This document shows positions 44,601-55,863 of a stretch of DNA of 64,000 nt, in pieces; position 1 is the first letter of the stretch; every line of letters starts with the position of its first letter. The position numbers and the translations under genes were made by a program. The stretch is from Candidatus Limnocylindrales bacterium (GTDB taxonomy: Bacteria; Moduliflexota; Moduliflexia; Moduliflexales; JAUQPW01): assembly GCA_035559535.1 (NCBI GenBank), contig DATMBG010000002.1:1-64000 (forward strand), written 5' to 3'. The notes under the pieces were generated by a model. It was not told the origin of the DNA and ran no database searches. It saw only the letters and a program-made list of their open reading frames with translations.

Positions 44601-45041
44601 TCAGGAAACTAAATATCGGGCACGGATCATAACTTTTCGGGTGGAATCTTTATCTTCAATCTGTACCACAACCCTGATTTTCTTCTCAACCTTAAGAAAT
44701 CGAGCTCCCTGTACCGTACCTGTGGACAGAATCTCTACCTGCCCGGCTGAATCTAAAGGCTTTAAGATGACAGAGAAAGTTCCATTTCCCAGTAAAGTTT
44801 CGGTTTCTCCTTGATAATTTGATTCAGATTTTGACAGTTCGTGCAAGGCCTTTTCAACTCCCGCCTCAGCTAAATTAAAGGCTACATCATTGAGGTAGCT
44901 TCGAGTGGTAAGGAAATATTCGGAACTTCCACGATTTAAGGAAACACCTATCAGGATAAACAGCGAGGAAAAAACCGCCGTAATTAAAATCAAGGCTACA
45001 CCCCGTTCACTTTTTAAAACCCTCCACCCTTGCATGGTCAT
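44601..45041 (-). CDS. PilX-like pilus assembly protein
   Basis: 146 residues. The start RGVALILITAVFSSLFILIG is the PilX/minor-pilin type N-terminal helix, without the usual Glu5; LNDVAFNLAEAGVEKALHEL follows as in PilX proteins. Last of three genes, each overlapping the next by four bases (ATGA), so translation is coupled. Confidence 0.65.
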   Translation of the reverse strand: MTMQGWRVLKSERGVALILITAVFSSLFILIGVSLNRGSSEYFLTTRSYLNDVAFNLAEAGVEKALHELSKSESNYQGETETLLGNGTFSVILKPLDSAGQVEILSTGTVQGARFLKVEKKIRVVVQIEDKDSTRKVMIRARYLVS

Positions 45042-45625
45042 TGAACTCCGGCGCGATAAGCTGAATCGATATGTAAACTTCGTGTGATCCCATACAGTTT
45101 CTTTTCCAAATCTAACTCGATTTTTACAACTGTTTGGGAAGGATTTAAAGTAAACTTTAAACTTCTCACATCCTGAGAAATTAAATCGATACCACTCTGA
45201 GAAGGAGAAGCTATCCGACGAACTTTTCCCAGAATCCCAAGGTTTTTCTCATCAGGTGGATCATAGAGATAAAGGATAGAGGCTTCTTTTCCCGGATCTC
45301 CTTCGGGTGGGCCGGGTAAGTTTAAAACCAGGACCTCTTCGGAGTTTTGAAATCCACCGCGCTGGATCGAAATTTTATAGGCACTTCGAATATCTTTACC
45401 TAGTTGGCTTAAAAACATTTGGGCCTCATGTAAAAGATCCAGATCCAGGTCGGCCCGATTAATGTTTTCATATGTGTTGGAAAAGACCGTCAGAGCCACG
45501 ATAATAAAGATCGATAAAATAAGTATGGCAACACTGACTTCAGGTAACGTAAATCCTTTTGGAGACCGATCGGATAACCCTCTGATTTTTGAATAAAAGA
45601 GTTCTATAAAATCCCTAAACCTCAT
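45038..45625 (-). CDS. Type IV prepilin-like protein (PilW/PulJ type)
   Basis: 195 residues. A 23-residue basic leader precedes a prepilin peptidase site KG-FTLPEVSVAILILS; position +5 is Glu. The rest is beta-rich with an oligomeric minor-pilin look. It overlaps both neighbours by four bases. Confidence 0.78.
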   Translation of the reverse strand: MRFRDFIELFYSKIRGLSDRSPKGFTLPEVSVAILILSIFIIVALTVFSNTYENINRADLDLDLLHEAQMFLSQLGKDIRSAYKISIQRGGFQNSEEVLVLNLPGPPEGDPGKEASILYLYDPPDEKNLGILGKVRRIASPSQSGIDLISQDVRSLKFTLNPSQTVVKIELDLEKKLYGITRSLHIDSAYRAGVQ

Positions 45626-45990
45626 CGATGGGCCCTCAGGGTCGAAAGGGATACACTTTGCATCGTACCTGCCGACCCACGCCAGGAGATAGTCACCACA
45701 ATCTTTTTCAACTCCGAGGTATTAAAATCACTGACTTCGACCTCTCCCTGACCCTCCGGGAGATCTGGAATAGAAGACAGAGAATAACTCTTTAGCTGAT
45801 TAAAGGGAATATCTTTAGATGTTTCCATGATCGTATTGGCTTTTGCATGGGCCTTGGTGAGATTTTTAGTATCCTGAATGAGGCGTTGTTCTTGAGAAAT
45901 GGAGACGGTAAAGATAACCACCAGAATACCAAGAACGGCTAAGGCAACAAGGGATTCTAAGAGAATATAGCCCTGAATCGATTTTCGCAT
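45622..45990 (-). CDS. Type IV prepilin-like protein (PilV type)
   Basis: 122 residues from ATG 45990 (MRKSIQGYILLE). The leader ends QG, then YILLESLVALAVLGIL, a type IV prepilin N-terminus with Glu at +5. Eight codons upstream are also open but add nothing. First gene of the minor-pilin operon; the major pilin and pilus motor genes are elsewhere. Confidence 0.75.
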   Translation of the reverse strand: MRKSIQGYILLESLVALAVLGILVVIFTVSISQEQRLIQDTKNLTKAHAKANTIMETSKDIPFNQLKSYSLSSIPDLPEGQGEVEVSDFNTSELKKIVVTISWRGSAGTMQSVSLSTLRAHR

Positions 45991-46146
45991 GTTAAATCCC
46001 CCTGTAAAAGTCAAAAAGGTCGGTAAATCATCTCTCTAAATCCTGCGCTATGGTTAACCTATTCTTCCTCCTTGTCAAGGAAAAAAGATTTCTTTCTTAC
46101 ACAAATTTGAGTCCCGAAACTCAGGAATCAGATTCTCAAAGCCTCT

Positions 46147-46576: not shown

Positions 46577-47716
46577 ATGAAACATACGTGGGTTCTTTGT
46601 ATTTTTCTTGCTCTGCTTTTCTTAGGAGGGGAAGTTTCAGCGAAAAATTTTGAACAGATTGCTTTAGAACAAAGACCCGGCATCGTGGCGGTTATTTCCC
46701 TAAACCAGGAAACTGCTTCCTTAGGAACCGGATTTGTGGTCAACCCCAGGGGGTATGTTTTGACCAATTATCACGTGATCCAACAAGGAGACCTGATTGG
46801 AGTTAAATTCTATAATGGAGAGGTCTATGACGCTCGACCCGTCGCTTTTGATGAAGATAAAGACATAGCGGTCTTAAAAATTGATGGGGTCGGCTTTCCT
46901 ACGGTACTTCTTGGAAATTCCAGCGAATTGAAAAAAGGCGAAGCGGTCATTGCCATAGGAAATCCCCTGGGTTGGGAAGGCATTGTTACTCCGGGTCGGA
47001 TTAAAAGGATCTGCTACGTCCGATCCTCCACGGTATTGTGTGGACGTAAACCCAAGGTCTATGATTACCAGCTCATTGAAACTTCAACGCCCCTCTTACC
47101 CGGTAATAGTGGTGGACCTCTGATTAATAGCCGTGGCGAGATTATCGGAATTAATACCCTCCGTTCTAATTATCCCAGTGTAAATTTTGCAGTTCCCATT
47201 AATTATGCCAAAAGCCTGCTAAGCAAGTTGGAAAGAGAAATAGAGGGATTAGAAAAACCCATGGCTAAATCGTATCGCCGAAATGACCTGGCATCTACTA
47301 AACCGAAAGGGAGTGCGGCCATCCAAAGCATCTGGCTGGAACCGAACATCCTTTTAGATGGGGAATGGGGCCTACGCTTCCACGTAAATTTTCTCATCCG
47401 GGGATATGTGGGAGAAGAATGCTCGGTAAAGATCTTTTTCTATTACACAGATGGGCGTAAAGTCCTTAACCAAACCGAAAACTACACAGCTCCAGATAGA
47501 CAGGCCTTTGTTCAAAAGATCTTTATTCCAGAGTCTGCCGAGACCTCCCTCCAGAGTTTATCATTATTTATCCCTTACTACGCTTTACCCCCGGATCTAC
47601 CCCTTCAAGGGGAAATTGTCATTCTGGATCCTATGGGAAAAAAGCTCACCAGTAAGATGTCCAGTCCTTTTTATCTTTCAACCTCTTACTTACAAGGATG
47701 GATACCCCCTCAGTAA
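46577..47716 (+). CDS. HtrA/DegP-type exported serine protease
   Basis: 379 residues with a signal peptide (about 1-22, VSAK). Trypsin-like domain with full triad: H66 (NYHV), D96 (DEDKDIAVL), S178 (GNSGGPL). Instead of a PDZ domain the C-terminus (about 250-379) is a beta-rich region with no recognised family (CSVKIFFYYTDGRKV...). Likely periplasmic protein quality control or processing. Confidence 0.83.
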   Translation: MKHTWVLCIFLALLFLGGEVSAKNFEQIALEQRPGIVAVISLNQETASLGTGFVVNPRGYVLTNYHVIQQGDLIGVKFYNGEVYDARPVAFDEDKDIAVLKIDGVGFPTVLLGNSSELKKGEAVIAIGNPLGWEGIVTPGRIKRICYVRSSTVLCGRKPKVYDYQLIETSTPLLPGNSGGPLINSRGEIIGINTLRSNYPSVNFAVPINYAKSLLSKLEREIEGLEKPMAKSYRRNDLASTKPKGSAAIQSIWLEPNILLDGEWGLRFHVNFLIRGYVGEECSVKIFFYYTDGRKVLNQTENYTAPDRQAFVQKIFIPESAETSLQSLSLFIPYYALPPDLPLQGEIVILDPMGKKLTSKMSSPFYLSTSYLQGWIPPQ

Positions 47717-47894: not shown

Positions 47895-48428
47895 TTAAAG
47901 CCGTTCACTACAATACTCATAGAATTTACAACTCTGGCAGCGGCTTCGGCTTGAATGATTCCTTCGGGCCGGGGTTTTTCGTAAAAGAATGGCCCGCATT
48001 TCTTCCAGTACGGTACCCAGAGCAGGAATTAAAGTCGGATCGTACGAAACTTCAGTTTGCCCATCCCTGAATCGCAAAATACCTTGATAAGGCCGGAGTC
48101 CAAATTCTCTTTCAACAAGTAGAAAGTAAGCGGCCAGTTGCATTCGATGGGAAAGGTACAGCTCTCCAGGTTTCGTTCCTCGCTTATCTTCAATAACAAG
48201 AGCCTGGGAACGGTTCCGATAAACCCAATCGGGTTTACCGCAGAGAATAACCCCCTTAATGAAAGCCTTAAGTAACCTCCCTTCGCCTTGAGCATCGGTA
48301 TAAATCAGCTTCCAGCCTTTAGGAATACTTAATTCCCTGGAAAGTCTTCTTTTTTTCAAAAGGAGATAGGGAAGAAAGAGGAAAAAATTGAAGAAAATAA
48401 ACAGACCTAACCCTAGATTGAGATTCAT
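47895..48428 (-). CDS. Membrane-anchored Cas4-like nuclease, C-terminal half
   Basis: 177 residues. One N-terminal membrane helix (about 6-25) is followed by a PD-(D/E)XK nuclease core of the RecB/Cas4 type: GKPDWVY (D67), VIEDKRG (E80, K82), RMQLAAYFLL (Q97). Three cysteines at the end (C164, C167, C173) can hold an iron-sulfur cluster, but the usual fourth, N-terminal one is missing; it is present in the gene just upstream (Cys48), which overlaps by ATGA. The pair together make a complete Cas4-like protein. No CRISPR array or cas gene is seen here. Confidence 0.72.
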   Translation of the reverse strand: MNLNLGLGLFIFFNFFLFLPYLLLKKRRLSRELSIPKGWKLIYTDAQGEGRLLKAFIKGVILCGKPDWVYRNRSQALVIEDKRGTKPGELYLSHRMQLAAYFLLVEREFGLRPYQGILRFRDGQTEVSYDPTLIPALGTVLEEMRAILLRKTPARRNHSSRSRCQSCKFYEYCSERL

Positions 48429-48856
48429 AGCCCCCTCCAGAGTAGAAAGGTCAGAAGGATAAATCCAACCCCTATAGAAATCCAGATCAGGTTTTCCAGA
48501 TAGAAGAGGAATCTTGTTTTCCAGGAAATGCGGCTGTGATGTTGAAGTCCTTTGTTAAGAAGCTCATAGGCTTCCAGAAGGTCGAGTAAATATCGAAGCT
48601 CAACCTTTTCTTCTGGAGAAAGAAACTTTTTAGCGCGCAGTTCGTTGATCTTTCTCAGAGCCTCCGCCTGGGAGAGTATCTGACCCTGGCGTTCCCGGTA
48701 CCAGGCCAAAGGGCAGAAACTGTACTGTCCTACTTCAGATACCGTAATAAAAACAGGATTTTTAAGAAGGGATTCCATATCGGAGAATGAACCATCCGCT
48801 TCGTTCTGCGGAATCCGGGTTCCAGATAAAATCGAAGGAAGCAGGCTATACTCCAA
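48425..48856 (-). CDS. Membrane-anchored Cas4-like nuclease, N-terminal half
   Basis: 143 residues. The middle has the Cas4-type first cysteine block EVGQYSFCPLAWYRERQG (Cys48), followed by a helical linker. A C-terminal membrane helix (about 113-140) faces the N-terminal helix of the next protein. The stop overlaps the next start (ATGA). Alone it lacks every nuclease residue. In single-chain family members I would expect this region to be joined to the core. Confidence 0.65.
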   Translation of the reverse strand: MEYSLLPSILSGTRIPQNEADGSFSDMESLLKNPVFITVSEVGQYSFCPLAWYRERQGQILSQAEALRKINELRAKKFLSPEEKVELRYLLDLLEAYELLNKGLQHHSRISWKTRFLFYLENLIWISIGVGFILLTFLLWRGL

Positions 48857-48922: not shown

Positions 48923-49915
48923 TTATATTCCGGTAGTTTTATAGAATTTATATCGGTCCTCGCTTCGGACTGTAATTTCGTAGGTGACCCCATTACGTAA
49001 GATGGTTAACTCTAGCTTGTCACCTACGGAAGTAGACCATAACTGCTGGAGAAAATCGGCATCACTGGAAATCTCTATACCGTTCAGATGGGTAATAATA
49101 TCCCCCCGTTGAATTCCGGCTTTATCGCCAGGACCTCCAGCCACAACCCCTGCCACCGCCATTCCCTCGGCAACTAAAACATGGTAAACCCCCAGCCAGG
49201 AACGGGAAGGCCGACTGAGAACCCTGCCGAATTTTAGAAGCTCATCTTTAATGCCATGAAAGATATCAATGGGAATAGCCAGATTCATGGCTTGAGGCTC
49301 ACTGAGTTGAAGAGAAATAATCCCAATACACTCTCCTTGAAAATTAAGGAGAGGACTACCTCCAAACGCAGGATTTGGCGGAACCACCAGAATAGCTTCA
49401 TCCAACATGTACTCCCAATATCCGACAAAGGGTTGAATAGCAAAAATACGTCCATTGGTTATGACCCGGGTGTTTTCCTCCAGACTACCCATGGTAACAG
49501 TTAAGTCTCCGACGTTGGCTTCCTCGGAAGAGCCTAAAGAAATAGGCCATTGACCTACCGGTTCTAGAGCCCGAAGAACTCCAAATCCACTTTCAAGATC
49601 AACTCCTAAGAGCTTTGCCGGTACTTGCTGACCATCATCCAGAGTAATTTGAGCCGTATCTGCCTCCAAAATGAGATATCCTACCGTTAAAACATGAATC
49701 TCATCGATCAGAACCCCGGTTCCCTGACGAAAAGTCCCTAGAACCCGACTGGAAGGACTTGTCTCTGAAATACTGGCCTGCACACGTACTACAGAGGGTC
49801 GAACCTTATCTACAATCTGTAGGATCTGATCCTTAAGACCTACATGACCATTATGCTCATAAGAAAGTTGATAAACAATTTGCGCCATAGTTTCCTTAAC
49901 TTCACCTACTTCCAT
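48923..49915 (-). CDS. Inactive HtrA homologue (pseudo-protease) with PDZ domain
   Basis: 330 residues without a signal peptide. The fold matches HtrA: N-terminal protease domain and C-terminal PDZ (WLGVYHVLVAEGMAVAG...DKAGIQRGDIITHLNG). All triad places are lost: the His region reads VLTVGYLI (Tyr80), the Asp place Gly110 (VDLESGFGVL), the Ser place Gly185 (AFGGSPLL). It is probably a peptide-binding or scaffold protein. The cas4-like pair lies 66 bases downstream on the same strand, so one operon is likely. Confidence 0.78.
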   Translation of the reverse strand: MEVGEVKETMAQIVYQLSYEHNGHVGLKDQILQIVDKVRPSVVRVQASISETSPSSRVLGTFRQGTGVLIDEIHVLTVGYLILEADTAQITLDDGQQVPAKLLGVDLESGFGVLRALEPVGQWPISLGSSEEANVGDLTVTMGSLEENTRVITNGRIFAIQPFVGYWEYMLDEAILVVPPNPAFGGSPLLNFQGECIGIISLQLSEPQAMNLAIPIDIFHGIKDELLKFGRVLSRPSRSWLGVYHVLVAEGMAVAGVVAGGPGDKAGIQRGDIITHLNGIEISSDADFLQQLWSTSVGDKLELTILRNGVTYEITVRSEDRYKFYKTTGI

Positions 49916-52164: not shown

Positions 52165-55100
52165 TTGATAACCTTTAACATCATGGACTTAAAAAAATCT
52201 AAACGCTTTCTGGTCGGAGTAATCTTCTTCGTATTTTTGACCCTACTCATCGGATACGATATCTGGACCGATGTTTTAAATTATCACTTTCGTCTAAGCC
52301 CTAAAAAGGGGATTTCGAACACCATCGAACTGTATCGAGGAAAGGTAAACAGTTGGAACCCTTTTGGATTAAAGAAATATCAGCTAGAAACCGGATATCT
52401 ACGAAACCAGATCGAAGAGGATAAGCTTTTTGCCGAAAAACCCTTGACAAATTTTGAGACCTGGAATCTGGAACTCCTGGAATATTTCCCTCTTCTAAAA
52501 AGGATCTCTGCTTACCGGGAAATCGGAGAAATAGGAAAGGCTCTGAAATTAGCAGATACGGCCATTTCCAAAGAGAATAGGGCTCAAACCCAAGAGATCC
52601 TCCATCTTCTGGGTAATTTTCATTCAGGTAAAGTAATCTCTGTTTTGAAAGCCCATTTAGAACCCTCCGAAGATTCAAGTATCCGAAGAGATATCATTCC
52701 AATCCTGGGTTCCATGAAAATTCCCGAAGCCATGGAGGTTTTAATGACCTTATTGAAGGATTCAGACAAATACGTAAAACTGGATGCAGCCCAAGAACTT
52801 GTGCCAGTGGGAAGGACGGAAGTGATTGAACCCCTACTCATCTTACTCAAGGATTCGGATAAACAGGTCCAACTCAGGGCTGCAAAAATGCTCGTACAGT
52901 TAGGACGCGTGGAGGTAATAGAACCCTTGGTGACTTTACTGAAAGATCCCAATTATCATATTCGGACCGATGCCGCCAGGTTATTACTCCAATCCAGACG
53001 GGTCGAGATGATCGAACCTCTGGTAGCCTTACTGAAAGATCCGAATTCAGAAGTACGGCGTAATGTAACGGAAATACTGCTGGGCCTGGGTCATATTGAG
53101 ATGGTCGAGCCGCTGATAGCCTTGTTAAAGGATTCCGATACTTCTCTGCAGCTTAACGTGGCCGAGATGCTGGTAGAGTTGAAGCGGACCGAAGCGGTCG
53201 GGCCTTTGATAGCCTTGTTGAAAGATCCGGATCCGGAAGTACAAACCCGGGCGGCCTTTGCGTTGGCCCGGTTGAGTCAGGTCGAAGCGATAGAACCTTT
53301 GATAACTTTACTGAGACATCCGATTCCTTTCATGCGGTTTCGGGCCGCAGAAGCCCTTGTACAATTGAACCGTGCTGAAGTCGTTGAACCCCTGGTAGCC
53401 CTCCTCCAGGACCCAGATCCGGAGATACGAGCACGTGCAGCATCGGTACTGGGACGATTGGGACGGACCGAGGCAGTAGGTCCCTTATTATCCTTATTAA
53501 AGGATGAAGATCATTTTGTTCGACGCACGGCGACATCGGCCCTTGTAAAGTTGGGTCGTGCTGAGGCGATGGAACCTTTATTGACCATGGTTAAGGATAA
53601 AGATCCCCTCGTACGACGTACGGTGACTTCTCTATTAGGAGAACTAGGGCAGGCCGAAGCAGTAGAACCTTTGATCACCCTCTTAAAGGATCCAGATTCC
53701 GATGTACGAAACCGCGCCATATCCATGTTAGAAGAGCTGGATCGTACCGAAGCAGCCAAACCGCTGGTAGTCCTGTTAAAAGATCCGAATACCTTTGTAC
53801 GAAGCCATGCAGCAGAGGCCCTAATCCAGTTAGGTCAGGTCGAGATTTTGGAGCCTCTGATCACCTTATTGAAGGATGAGGATTCGGATGTGCGTAACCG
53901 TGTCGCTTCAATACTTATAGAATCAGGTCAGGTTGAAGCGGTAGAACCTTTGAAGGTTTTGTTGAAAGATCCAGATTCCGGGGTGCGAAGCCGTGCAGCG
54001 GCTGTACTGGCGGAGTTAGGTCGTATGGAGGCCGTAGAACCGCTCCTGGCTCTGCTAAAGGACCCGGACCCGGAAGTACGAAATCGTGCGGTATTTGCGC
54101 TGGTAGAACTGGGCCGCACGGAAGCTGTTGAACCCCTGATAGCTCTGCTGAGGGGTCCGGATAAATACGTACAAAACCGGGCCATAGCTGCCCTGGTGAA
54201 ATTGGGACGGGTTGAAGCTGTGGAACCACTCCTGATTTTACTAAAGGATCGGGATCCGGTGGTACGAAGGGGTGCAGCGCTTGCATTGGGAGAGTTCAAT
54301 CATGCCGAGGCAATAGAACCTTTAATGGCCTTATTAGAAGATCAAGATCCGGAGATACGAAATCGAGCGGCCCTGCTGTTGGGTAAATTGAGGTATCCAG
54401 GAGCTCTGGAATCCTTGATAAACTTATTAAAAGATCCGGATAAATATGTACAAATGGGTGCGGCCTCTGCATTGGGAGAATTGGGACGAGAGGAGGCTGT
54501 AGAACCTTTAGAGGTCTTACTGAAGGATCCCGATAAATATCTGCGATTGAGTGCGACCTCTGCACTGATAAAACTGAGATATCCAGAACCTGTTGAACAA
54601 TTGGGAGATCTTTTAAAGGATAAAGAACCCCTGGTGCGATATAGTACGGTCCAGGCGTTTGGAGAATCGGGTCTTACACAGGCTATAGAACCCCTGGCAG
54701 TTCTACTTAACGATCCCGATCCCTCCGTACGAAGTCGTACGGCATTGACCTTGGGTAAGTTATCTGCCGGGGAAAAGTTGGGGGCTCTTCAAGCTCTCTT
54801 CCAAGATGCCAGGGAAAAATATGAAGTTAAACTGGCTACAGCAATGGCTTTATGGGAATTAAACCAGAGGGAAGGCTTAGAATTTCTAATCGAGAAATCC
54901 AGAAGTCCAAGAGCCATCCAGCGAAGAAAAGTTGCAGAGATTTTGGGAGAAGTTTCCTCAGAACCAGGAACTTCTTTGCTGATATCCCTGCTCTCCGATA
55001 AGATACGAAGGGTTAGAATTCAAGCCATAGAATCTCTGGGACGTTCAAAGGGAAAAGCCTCTCTTTCCCATTTACATAGAATTCTCGAGGAATCTGATCC

Positions 55101-55863
55101 GAAAATTCGAGAGGTTACCGTAAAGGCCCTGACAGAAATAGCTTCGCCTGAAAGTGTTGAACCCTTGAAAAAAATAGCCCTGGATCCCCAAGAACGAATT
55201 CCTACCCGCCTATCTGCCATCACGGCCCTGGGAAATATTAAAACTGAACAGGCGGTACAGACTCTTTTAGAAATCCTCCAACAATCAGAAGAGATCTATC
55301 TCTTCAGCACCCTCCAGGCCTTAGGTAAAACGCACTCTCGTCAGGCAATCCCCTTTTTACAATCCCTCTTGAAACAACAGGAAGCACGCAGGCAGATCTG
55401 GCGAAAAGTTCGGGATGAGGATACAAAATTTTATACCGAACAACAATTTGAAGATTGGAAAAAACGATTGGAAGAGGTAAAACCCGAAAAACCGATAGAA
55501 TTTGAACTGGCCTATGTCCTCAGCCAACTGGATCCTGAAATCGAGGGAATTAAACTCCTCTCCCACGATCTGGCCTCTGTAAGAGAAGGGGCTTGGATGG
55601 GATTGTCCGGAGCTGGTACAGTTCAATTAATTCGGCAACTGGATCAGGAGCGACAGAGACGAAAGGGGGGTTCTCATCTTCATTTCCAAGAAGCCAGCTA
55701 TCGGGCTATAGACCATGCCCTTATTACTCTTCAGATGCAGGGAGGAAAAAAAGAACTAGAAGAGTTGAAAAAATTCCTGCTACAGGTTCAGGACGAAGAG
55801 GGAATTTCTACCCGAGTAGAATGGACGATCAAACGATGGAAAAATCTAAAGAATAATTCCTGA
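52165..55863 (+). CDS. Giant membrane-anchored HEAT-repeat protein
   Basis: 1232 residues from TTG 52165, which has TAAGG five to six bases upstream; an ATG six codons in (52183) lacks such a site. One membrane helix (about 14-34), a helical region, then more than 20 tandem HEAT repeats of 31 residues of the form EPLIALLKDPDPEVRxRAAxALxxLGR (about 190-860). Less regular repeats follow, and the C-terminal region is helical. Neighbouring repeats are close in DNA too, which suggests recent internal duplication. It is probably a scaffold facing the periplasm. No catalytic domain is seen. Confidence 0.82.
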   Translation: MITFNIMDLKKSKRFLVGVIFFVFLTLLIGYDIWTDVLNYHFRLSPKKGISNTIELYRGKVNSWNPFGLKKYQLETGYLRNQIEEDKLFAEKPLTNFETWNLELLEYFPLLKRISAYREIGEIGKALKLADTAISKENRAQTQEILHLLGNFHSGKVISVLKAHLEPSEDSSIRRDIIPILGSMKIPEAMEVLMTLLKDSDKYVKLDAAQELVPVGRTEVIEPLLILLKDSDKQVQLRAAKMLVQLGRVEVIEPLVTLLKDPNYHIRTDAARLLLQSRRVEMIEPLVALLKDPNSEVRRNVTEILLGLGHIEMVEPLIALLKDSDTSLQLNVAEMLVELKRTEAVGPLIALLKDPDPEVQTRAAFALARLSQVEAIEPLITLLRHPIPFMRFRAAEALVQLNRAEVVEPLVALLQDPDPEIRARAASVLGRLGRTEAVGPLLSLLKDEDHFVRRTATSALVKLGRAEAMEPLLTMVKDKDPLVRRTVTSLLGELGQAEAVEPLITLLKDPDSDVRNRAISMLEELDRTEAAKPLVVLLKDPNTFVRSHAAEALIQLGQVEILEPLITLLKDEDSDVRNRVASILIESGQVEAVEPLKVLLKDPDSGVRSRAAAVLAELGRMEAVEPLLALLKDPDPEVRNRAVFALVELGRTEAVEPLIALLRGPDKYVQNRAIAALVKLGRVEAVEPLLILLKDRDPVVRRGAALALGEFNHAEAIEPLMALLEDQDPEIRNRAALLLGKLRYPGALESLINLLKDPDKYVQMGAASALGELGREEAVEPLEVLLKDPDKYLRLSATSALIKLRYPEPVEQLGDLLKDKEPLVRYSTVQAFGESGLTQAIEPLAVLLNDPDPSVRSRTALTLGKLSAGEKLGALQALFQDAREKYEVKLATAMALWELNQREGLEFLIEKSRSPRAIQRRKVAEILGEVSSEPGTSLLISLLSDKIRRVRIQAIESLGRSKGKASLSHLHRILEESDPKIREVTVKALTEIASPESVEPLKKIALDPQERIPTRLSAITALGNIKTEQAVQTLLEILQQSEEIYLFSTLQALGKTHSRQAIPFLQSLLKQQEARRQIWRKVRDEDTKFYTEQQFEDWKKRLEEVKPEKPIEFELAYVLSQLDPEIEGIKLLSHDLASVREGAWMGLSGAGTVQLIRQLDQERQRRKGGSHLHFQEASYRAIDHALITLQMQGGKKELEELKKFLLQVQDEEGISTRVEWTIKRWKNLKNNS

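Follow-up and report, generated by a model that had tools for sequence, protein, structure and literature searches.

Two short, overlapping open reading frames on one strand of a bacterial contig raise the question of whether a Cas4-like nuclease can exist as two membrane-bound chains. The window in which they lie is the whole stretch of DNA that was analysed, 64,000 nucleotides in length, and a sequence-only reading of it had proposed that the two proteins, here P1 and P2, together make up one Cas4-type enzyme. The comparative analysis presented below makes it quite probable that they are the two chains of one Cas4-like membrane nuclease, of the RecB-type PD-(D/E)XK, iron-sulfur kind, the complex, the cluster and the cutting of DNA being inferred. 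What sequence comparison itself establishes is the Cas4 homology of both parts, the predicted positive-inside orientation of their helices, the conservation of the split, the existence of single-chain forms and the co-occurrence of the two genes even where they are unlinked. The features of the locus are as follows.

48425 to 48778, minus strand: P1, the first chain, 117 amino acids from ATG, with Cys22, Trp26, G77-x3-H81 and a C-terminal membrane helix (predicted); it rests on the open reading frame, Cas4 N-terminus profile comparisons and a dN/dS of 0.19.
47895 to 48428, minus strand: P2, the second chain, 177 amino acids, with an N-terminal membrane helix (predicted), G64-K-P-D67, E80-x-K82, Q97, Y101 and Cys164/167/173; it rests on PF01930, PF12705, TIGR00372 and a dN/dS of 0.13.
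48425 to 48428, minus strand: ATGA, the overlap of the P2 start with the P1 stop, read from the sequence.
48434 to 48438, minus strand: GGAGG, a Shine-Dalgarno-like site of P2 within the 3' end of P1, read from the sequence.
48437 to 48493, minus strand: predicted membrane helix of P1, residues 96-114, the best 19-residue hydropathy window (2.06).
48360 to 48416, minus strand: predicted membrane helix of P2, residues 5-23, followed by KKRR, the best 19-residue hydropathy window (2.14).
48779 to 48856, minus strand: possible N-terminal extension of P1 from TTG, 26 codons, probably not coding (dN/dS 0.69).

P1 runs from YSFCPLAWY through a long linker to G77-L-Q-H-H81 and a hydrophobic stretch, the protein ending three residues later, and P2 from a hydrophobic stretch through KKRR, GKPD, EDK and RMQLAAY to C-x2-C-x5-C. 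All that had been pointed out beforehand is present in the minus-strand frames: the YSFCPLAWYRE cysteine motif and C-terminal hydrophobic stretch of the first protein; the hydrophobic N terminus, the three core motifs and the three end cysteines of the second; and the ATGA overlap between them. The GGAGG is spaced five bases ahead of the ATG of P2. Cys22 of P1 and Cys164, Cys167 and Cys173 of P2 are invariant, in 10 of 10 aligned sequences each, as are G77 and H81 of the G-x-x-x-H motif in the 10 P1 rows of alignment A3, which were read by eye. The dN/dS values come from comparison with the sister genome (G001), which has the same P1/P2 split and the same neighbours.

The extent originally given to the gene pair, 47895-48856, holds for P2 and probably not for P1. 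A start at TTG 48856 would give a P1 of 143 amino acids, and a purine-rich stretch lies upstream of this TTG, with none upstream of ATG 48778. The relatives of P1 start near the position matching ATG 48778, and because of this, and because the dN/dS of the extension is 0.69 against 0.19 for the rest, the sequences make ATG 48778 the more likely start.

Whether the split is a property of this one contig can be judged from the 68 loci that were read, of which 52 are split and 14 single-chain, with one having P2 only in its flank (L050) and one unclassified (L096). The split count combines 50 loci found by script with two recognized by eye (L091 and L093). The script picked P1 by its cysteine pattern, and the conservation of the cysteine in those 50 P1s is therefore circular; in 45 of the 50 loci, a pattern-free listing of open reading frames nonetheless showed a neighbouring frame that has the motif and ends in a hydrophobic stretch. 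Spacing between the two genes ranges from -40 to +692 bases over the 50 pairs, with the 4-base overlap recurring in 20. In L036 (850-1482) and L038 (834-1466, both in reverse-complement coordinates), a 210-amino acid, helical-repeat-like frame stands between P1 and P2, and on plasmid pTK9001 a DUF4326 gene does so.

Linkage is not a requirement for the presence of both genes. In 17 further wide loci (one of them, L122, from the same genome as L050), P1 was found within 1.3 kb in 12 and not in five, and in the genomes of those five it lies elsewhere. Searching with a P1 profile (A8) turned up a single P1 in every one of 11 P2-positive genomes and none in four P2-negative ones, and in six of the 11 it lay at a place other than that of P2; when these six distant loci were fetched, the frame was seen in four, those of G590 and G658 resting on E values of 1.4e-16 and 5.5e-16. 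The largest survey covered 301 genomes in the phylum of G063, inferred from sequence to be Chloroflexota because an Anaerolineaceae metagenome-assembled genome (L005), which has the split pair, groups with L034 of that phylum (96). Both genes were found in 73 genomes, P1 alone in two, P2 alone in 11 and neither in 215, counts that are not corrected for kinship. The two P1-only genomes are G420, with a partial P2 match, and G444; the 11 P2-only genomes all belong to one family in which P1 has diverged, and P1 is readable in two loci of that family (L135 and L136), one of them from a P2-only genome. In 65 of the 73 genomes with both, the genes lie within 3 kb of one another, and in eight they are unlinked: on the same contig in G663 (0.89 Mb apart) and in G590 (2.8 Mb apart on a 3.3-Mb contig, at least 0.5 Mb if circular), and on different contigs in six, among which the P1 of G478 is at a contig edge. 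The joint occurrence of P1 and P2, unlinked cases included, is in our judgement the strongest sign that both chains serve a single enzyme.

The supposition that the two frames are one broken cas4, produced by a frameshift, a sequencing error or the decay of a single gene, can draw on the existence of single-chain relatives, and is left with next to no credibility by the presence of the split in the sister genome as well, in several more lineages and on named plasmids that are complete, by purifying selection on both genes and a ribosome-binding site belonging to P2 itself, by intergenic gaps of up to 692 bases and the frame inserted in L036 and L038, and by the eight of 73 genomes in which the genes are unlinked. 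The unlinked copies refute a frameshift or assembly error outright.

Both fused and split versions had been thought worth looking for in relatives, and both exist; an intact single gene at this place, which would have overturned the proposal, is absent, the sole sister genome having the same split. All of the single-chain forms seen belong to the class of G298. They follow the order cysteine motif, G-x-x-L-H (lost in some), helix, loop, helix, core and three cysteines; the P1 profile matches them over residues 7-83 (E 8.7e-12) and the P2 profile over residues 120-272 (E 1.7e-29), and PF12705 matched all eight that were scanned. Their existence does not make the window pair a frameshift because the helices and loop sit exactly at the split site, and because they are confined to one class and lie among split forms. 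Two further single-chain paralogs, L116 (G298:C59) and L117, have a damaged active site (IPAIIRP and IPVDRYT), and G298 has one damaged single-chain paralog besides an intact split pair.

A quick tree of the core region (141 columns and 81 rows, of which 52 were split, 16 single-chain and 13 ordinary Cas4) places ordinary Cas4 on one side of a branch with an SH-aLRT of 99. The single-chain rows fall among split rows of the same class, and the starred branches require the single-chain label to have changed at least twice. A script dropped nine further Cas4 rows, and at least one of the rows kept is partial; the finer order of the tree is unsure because of the dropped rows and because the alignment has only 141 columns. 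When a broad profile (A7) was run on 385 genomes, 11 of them gave matches of at least 108 bits with a membrane helix, and the remaining matches reached 74 bits at most and started at profile position 23 or later; L014 and L016, from this lower-scoring class, were read as ordinary Cas4 or a Cas4-Cas1 fusion. As far as can be judged from such comparisons, the membrane Cas4-like proteins do form a group apart from ordinary Cas4.

The relation of the two chains to Cas4 is of unequal strength. P2 scores above the cut-off of PF01930 (E 3e-11; 44.1 bits against 22.7) and of PF12705 (E 5.2e-7) and falls short of that of the Cas4 equivalog TIGR00372 (60.2 bits against 65). Its similarity to Cas4 spans its C-terminal two-thirds and extends to solved Cas4 chains (4r5q, E 1.6e-10; 8d3l, 1.6e-9; 4ic1, 7e-7). 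P1 has only a weak match to TIGR00372 (12 bits, E 0.14, positions 1-37) and none to PF01930 or any Pfam Cas4 family, and its two best matches among 177,635 PDB sequences, Cas4 chains at the N-terminal cysteine, are not significant (E 0.49 and 0.79). Compared as a profile with that of ordinary Cas4, it gives an E value of 1.7e-7 over 31 N-terminal columns. On the PADLOC Cas4 models, the P1s that match cover approximately positions 1-50 and the P2s 50-180, with two of the five P1s scanned giving no match. The profile searches that had been suggested thus place P2 on Cas4 and P1 on its N terminus. Structure adds little: the AlphaFold model of P2, from a two-row alignment, is poor (mean pLDDT 57), its best PDB fold match is a Cas4-family protein at a non-significant E of 0.075, and a single-chain relative (L078) searched alone had no PDB match by sequence.

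Alignment to Pcal_0546 locates the cut. P1 stops at residue 87 and P2 aligns from residue 106 on, and on these limits the cut and its hairpin would lie between the helix that bears the histidine and the strand leading toward the catalytic Asp. In the part of the Pcal_0546 report that was available (PMC4176176), four conserved cysteines, one at the N-terminal end and three at the C-terminal end, bind the cluster, His94 is a proposed metal ligand, and a conserved His lies near the metal. The G-x-x-x-H of P1 matches the metal-site His of Cas4 by position, and therefore the active site is divided, as well as the cysteine set. The Cas4 set of 1 + 3 cysteines is complete only in the pair, and so is the RecB motif set, with H81 from P1 and D67, E80, K82, Q97 and Y101 from P2. 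The claim that the two proteins jointly supply four cysteines and an active site is borne out, with one amendment: the G-x-x-x-H of P1, and with it the division of the active site itself, had been missed. For the nearness of the P1 cysteine to the cluster, alignment to solved Cas4 chains is the sole support.

These observations bear on the possibility that P1 is a separate small membrane partner or regulator and not a missing half, with P2 acting as a nuclease alone. The weakness of P1 in searches of curated profiles is compatible with it, as are the retention of activity by Pcal_0546 after loss of its cluster and the activity of some Cas4 cysteine mutants (PMC4176176, as far as that source was available). 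Set against this, the Cys and His positions missing from P2 are precisely those found in P1, P1 corresponds to the N terminus of the single-chain relatives, and the H80A variant of SSO1391 is inactive (same source, same limit). We consider a separate partner highly improbable and return to the reading in which P1 and P2 complete each other.

The hairpin proposed at the split is matched by a predicted hydrophobic helix on each chain at the cut and by the two helices and loop of the single-chain forms there. Across the 50 split pairs, the helix of P1 ends a median of three residues before the C terminus and the helix window of P2 starts at a median of residue 3. In 49 of these pairs Lys and Arg are more numerous ahead of the P1 helix than behind it, and in 48 the P2 helix shows the reverse, with more of them behind it. 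Positive charges flanking membrane helices are found preferentially on the cytosolic side (the positive-inside rule), and on this basis both soluble parts are predicted to face the cytosol. The P1 of gammaproteobacterial plasmids (L187-L190 and L192) keeps the cysteine motif and a G-x-x-x-H-like motif and ends in a CFI-box region of hydropathy 1.4-1.8 that replaces the strongly hydrophobic helix.

A mechanism can be proposed in which P1 would supply the histidine of the metal site and an N-terminal helix bearing one cysteine of the cluster, and P2 the Asp/Glu/Lys/Gln/Tyr core and the other three cysteines. With one membrane helix per chain at the cut, the pair would form a hairpin through the inner membrane with its soluble parts in the cytosol, and only when the chains meet in the membrane would the cluster and the metal site be completed. 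The completed enzyme may then cut single-stranded DNA near the inner face of the membrane. A two-chain membrane nuclease with a divided active and iron-sulfur site is well supported by sequence; that the two proteins associate, hold a cluster and act on DNA as a nuclease is inference.

The pair is widely scattered. Profile A1 gave 13 matches in 385 genomes, and the split pair was read in seven genomes beyond the genus of the window (G063, G314, G334, G108, G244, G371 and G298). Helix-including matches to profile A2, defined by a start at profile position 25 or earlier and E below 1e-23, were found in 84 of 301 genomes in the phylum of G063, one of three in that of G314 and four of seven in that of G108, and their presence is core-like in the class of G298 (39 of 45). 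Named carriers include the Bacillus subtilis plasmids NRS6107_2 and NRS6116_2 (a third B. subtilis record, CP120602, has a P2 match only), the Planctomycetota plasmids PALBO2 of Paludisphaera borealis and pSINAC03 of Singulisphaera acidiphila and, in the Gammaproteobacteria, Marinobacter (SBY-1 and VT8 pMAQU02), Vibrio tubiashii p123, Aeromonas caviae and Thioalkalivibrio pTK9001. On the plasmids, where annotation exists, P1 is called a “hypothetical protein” or a “CFI-box-CTERM” protein and P2 a “Dna2/Cas4,” “PD-(D/E)XK” or “hypothetical” protein. No relative was found in viral contigs (A1 and A7 scans) or in phage records (queried with P2 of L005 and of B. subtilis).

The statement that no CRISPR or cas gene is near stands for cas1, whose sole match in the genome is on another contig, and for CRISPR-like repeats, of which a 21-mer scan found none in the window; other cas families were outside the search. 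That cas1 stands next to a cas4 of the ordinary kind. Membership of the CRISPR-adaptation Cas4 equivalog was rejected, the TIGR00372 cut-off being missed and no cas1 being near.

In the window, the pair lies between trypsin-like and HtrA-like genes, which encode proteases and are not DNA genes, with minor pilin-like genes 2-3 kb away. The HtrA-like gene (48923-49915, minus strand), directly upstream of P1, has Trypsin_2 and PDZ domains; it seems to have lost both the His and the Ser of its catalytic site (VGY in place of NYH and FGGS in place of GNSGG), and from its sequence it is probably a pseudoprotease. The Trypsin_2 protease (46577-47716, plus strand), convergent to P2, has a signal-peptide-like start and an intact GNSGGP. 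Two genes with prepilin N-methylation motifs are found at 45038-46014 (minus strand), one with a weak ComGE match under the cut-off, and at 52165-55863 (plus strand) is a 1232-amino acid HEAT-repeat protein with 23 HEAT_2 stretches. A link of the window pair to ComEC was rejected, the comEC of this genome being on contig C40.

Elsewhere, contexts vary between lineages. In L020, genes for ComEC (PF03772, E 7e-36, near the contig end), HHH, metallo-beta-lactamase, HHH, P1, P2, methyltransferase and UvrD follow one another with overlaps or gaps of a few bases, and in L005, SSB and two small genes precede P1 and P2. Pairs on conjugative or mobilizable plasmids have SSB, RecT, TraG or relaxase genes within a few kb (SSB and RecT on p123, SSB and TraG in A. 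caviae, MobF on pSINAC03); those of B. subtilis have helicase, thermonuclease and toprim neighbours. Methyltransferase genes are beside the pair on PALBO2 and pTK9001 and, on pSINAC03, within 1 kb on the opposite strand. Three loci in the phylum of G108, at three places, lie among RhuM, GmrSD, Abi_2, AbiEii, Vsr-Dcm, DndB-like and methyltransferase genes. The other chromosomal loci adjoin RseP-like, NADK and RecN-like, or unknown genes; NADK and RecN-like genes are downstream in four to five loci of one phylum, and a translin-like gene, named by eye and without a Pfam match, is upstream in four. The clustering of neighbours omitted four loci without a script-found P2 (L020, L152, L156 and L157). 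In seven class-of-G298 loci (L138, L139, L140, L141, L147, L148 and L149), a conserved protein of approximately 165-185 amino acids is encoded just upstream of the pair or fused gene; Pfam has no match for it, nor for the recurring neighbours of 169 and 255 amino acids in that class. Separately, in L026 (3932-8264, G351), a PD-(D/E)XK-like protein that is a single membrane-anchored chain and lacks the cysteines adjoins a UvrD helicase.

What the pair does is a more open matter. A role in DNA entry is favoured because of the membrane position and the transfer, uptake and defence contexts, and we propose tentatively, as an inference that could well prove wrong, that the enzyme trims or degrades single-stranded DNA crossing or handled at the membrane, in natural uptake, conjugation or defence. 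Somewhat more speculative is the wider picture of a two-chain nuclease at the cytosolic mouth of DNA import, where it would process or destroy the single strands brought in by competence or conjugation, one widespread family linking uptake, plasmid transfer and defence. ComEC is present in 59 of 60 genomes whether or not they have the pair, and its presence is therefore uninformative on the uptake idea. The whole argument from context is suggestive only, because there was no random-locus control.

Two narrower roles remain. The pair might be a membrane-placed host DNA-repair enzyme with no part in DNA entry, given its RecN, RuvC, SSB and translin-like neighbours; the NADK/RecN-like and translin-like loci, the SSB of L005 and the near-constant presence in the class of G298 all fit, and membrane anchoring, conjugative plasmids and defence islands would go unexplained, so that this seems unlikely. 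It might also serve defence, as a nuclease breaking down phage or plasmid DNA at the membrane as it comes in. The defence-type neighbours of three loci in the phylum of G108 and the methyltransferase genes on PALBO2, pTK9001 and pSINAC03 are what one would expect of such an enzyme; the housekeeping contexts and near-universal presence elsewhere, the failure to find the pair in any phage record or viral contig searched and the lack of a random-locus control for the islands are not in its favour, and we doubt it. Handling of DNA at entry remains the role we favour, on the tentative terms given above.

Solved Cas4 proteins are soluble single chains, and to our knowledge the function of the solo-Cas4 forms is unknown. 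The Cas4 proteins of CRISPR adaptation (Pcal_0546, 4r5q; SSO0001, 4ic1; the Cas4/Cas1 fusion, 7mi4) share with P1/P2 the 1 + 3 cysteines, the His, the Asp, Glu-x-Lys and Gln-x3-Tyr, but act as soluble single chains with Cas1-Cas2, whereas P1/P2 is encoded by two genes with a hydrophobic helix each. The RecB/AddB-type and UvrD-Cas4 nucleases (PF12705) are related through the matches of P2 and of the single-chain relatives to that family, and a UvrD gene is found in L020; unlike them, P1/P2 has no helicase in the same chain and is, by prediction, membrane anchored. When the P2 model was compared by fold, the Argonaute-associated Cas4-family protein ACE1 (9iab and 9iac) came out best, without reaching significance; near P1/P2 no Argonaute gene was noticed, none having been sought.

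Closest are the solo-Cas4 genes (DUF83, PF01930; Hudaiberdiev et al. 2017, PMC5704561), which, in the part of the survey available, likewise encode a Cas4-type nuclease away from cas genes, share the core motifs and the cysteines of P1/P2 and reside on chromosomes as well as on mobile elements. P1/P2 differs from them in having two chains instead of one, with a membrane helix on each at the cut. In that part of the survey, the words “transmembrane” and “split” are absent, “membrane” occurs once, in a gene abbreviation, and short fragments were discarded. The sequence-only reading had held a two-chain, membrane-bound Cas4-like nuclease to be undescribed, and we found no description of a divided, membrane-anchored Cas4 in the open-access literature searched. 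The core enzyme type is known; its divided, membrane-anchored form is new in that it appears undescribed. It would represent a natural split nuclease that is completed by the meeting of its subunits, and named carriers are at hand for its study (B. subtilis NRS6107_2 and NRS6116_2, S. acidiphila and Marinobacter nauticus VT8). With an enzyme cut at its active site, both halves anchored in the membrane and the two genes kept in distant groups, the solo-Cas4 question gains a cellular place and a direct test.
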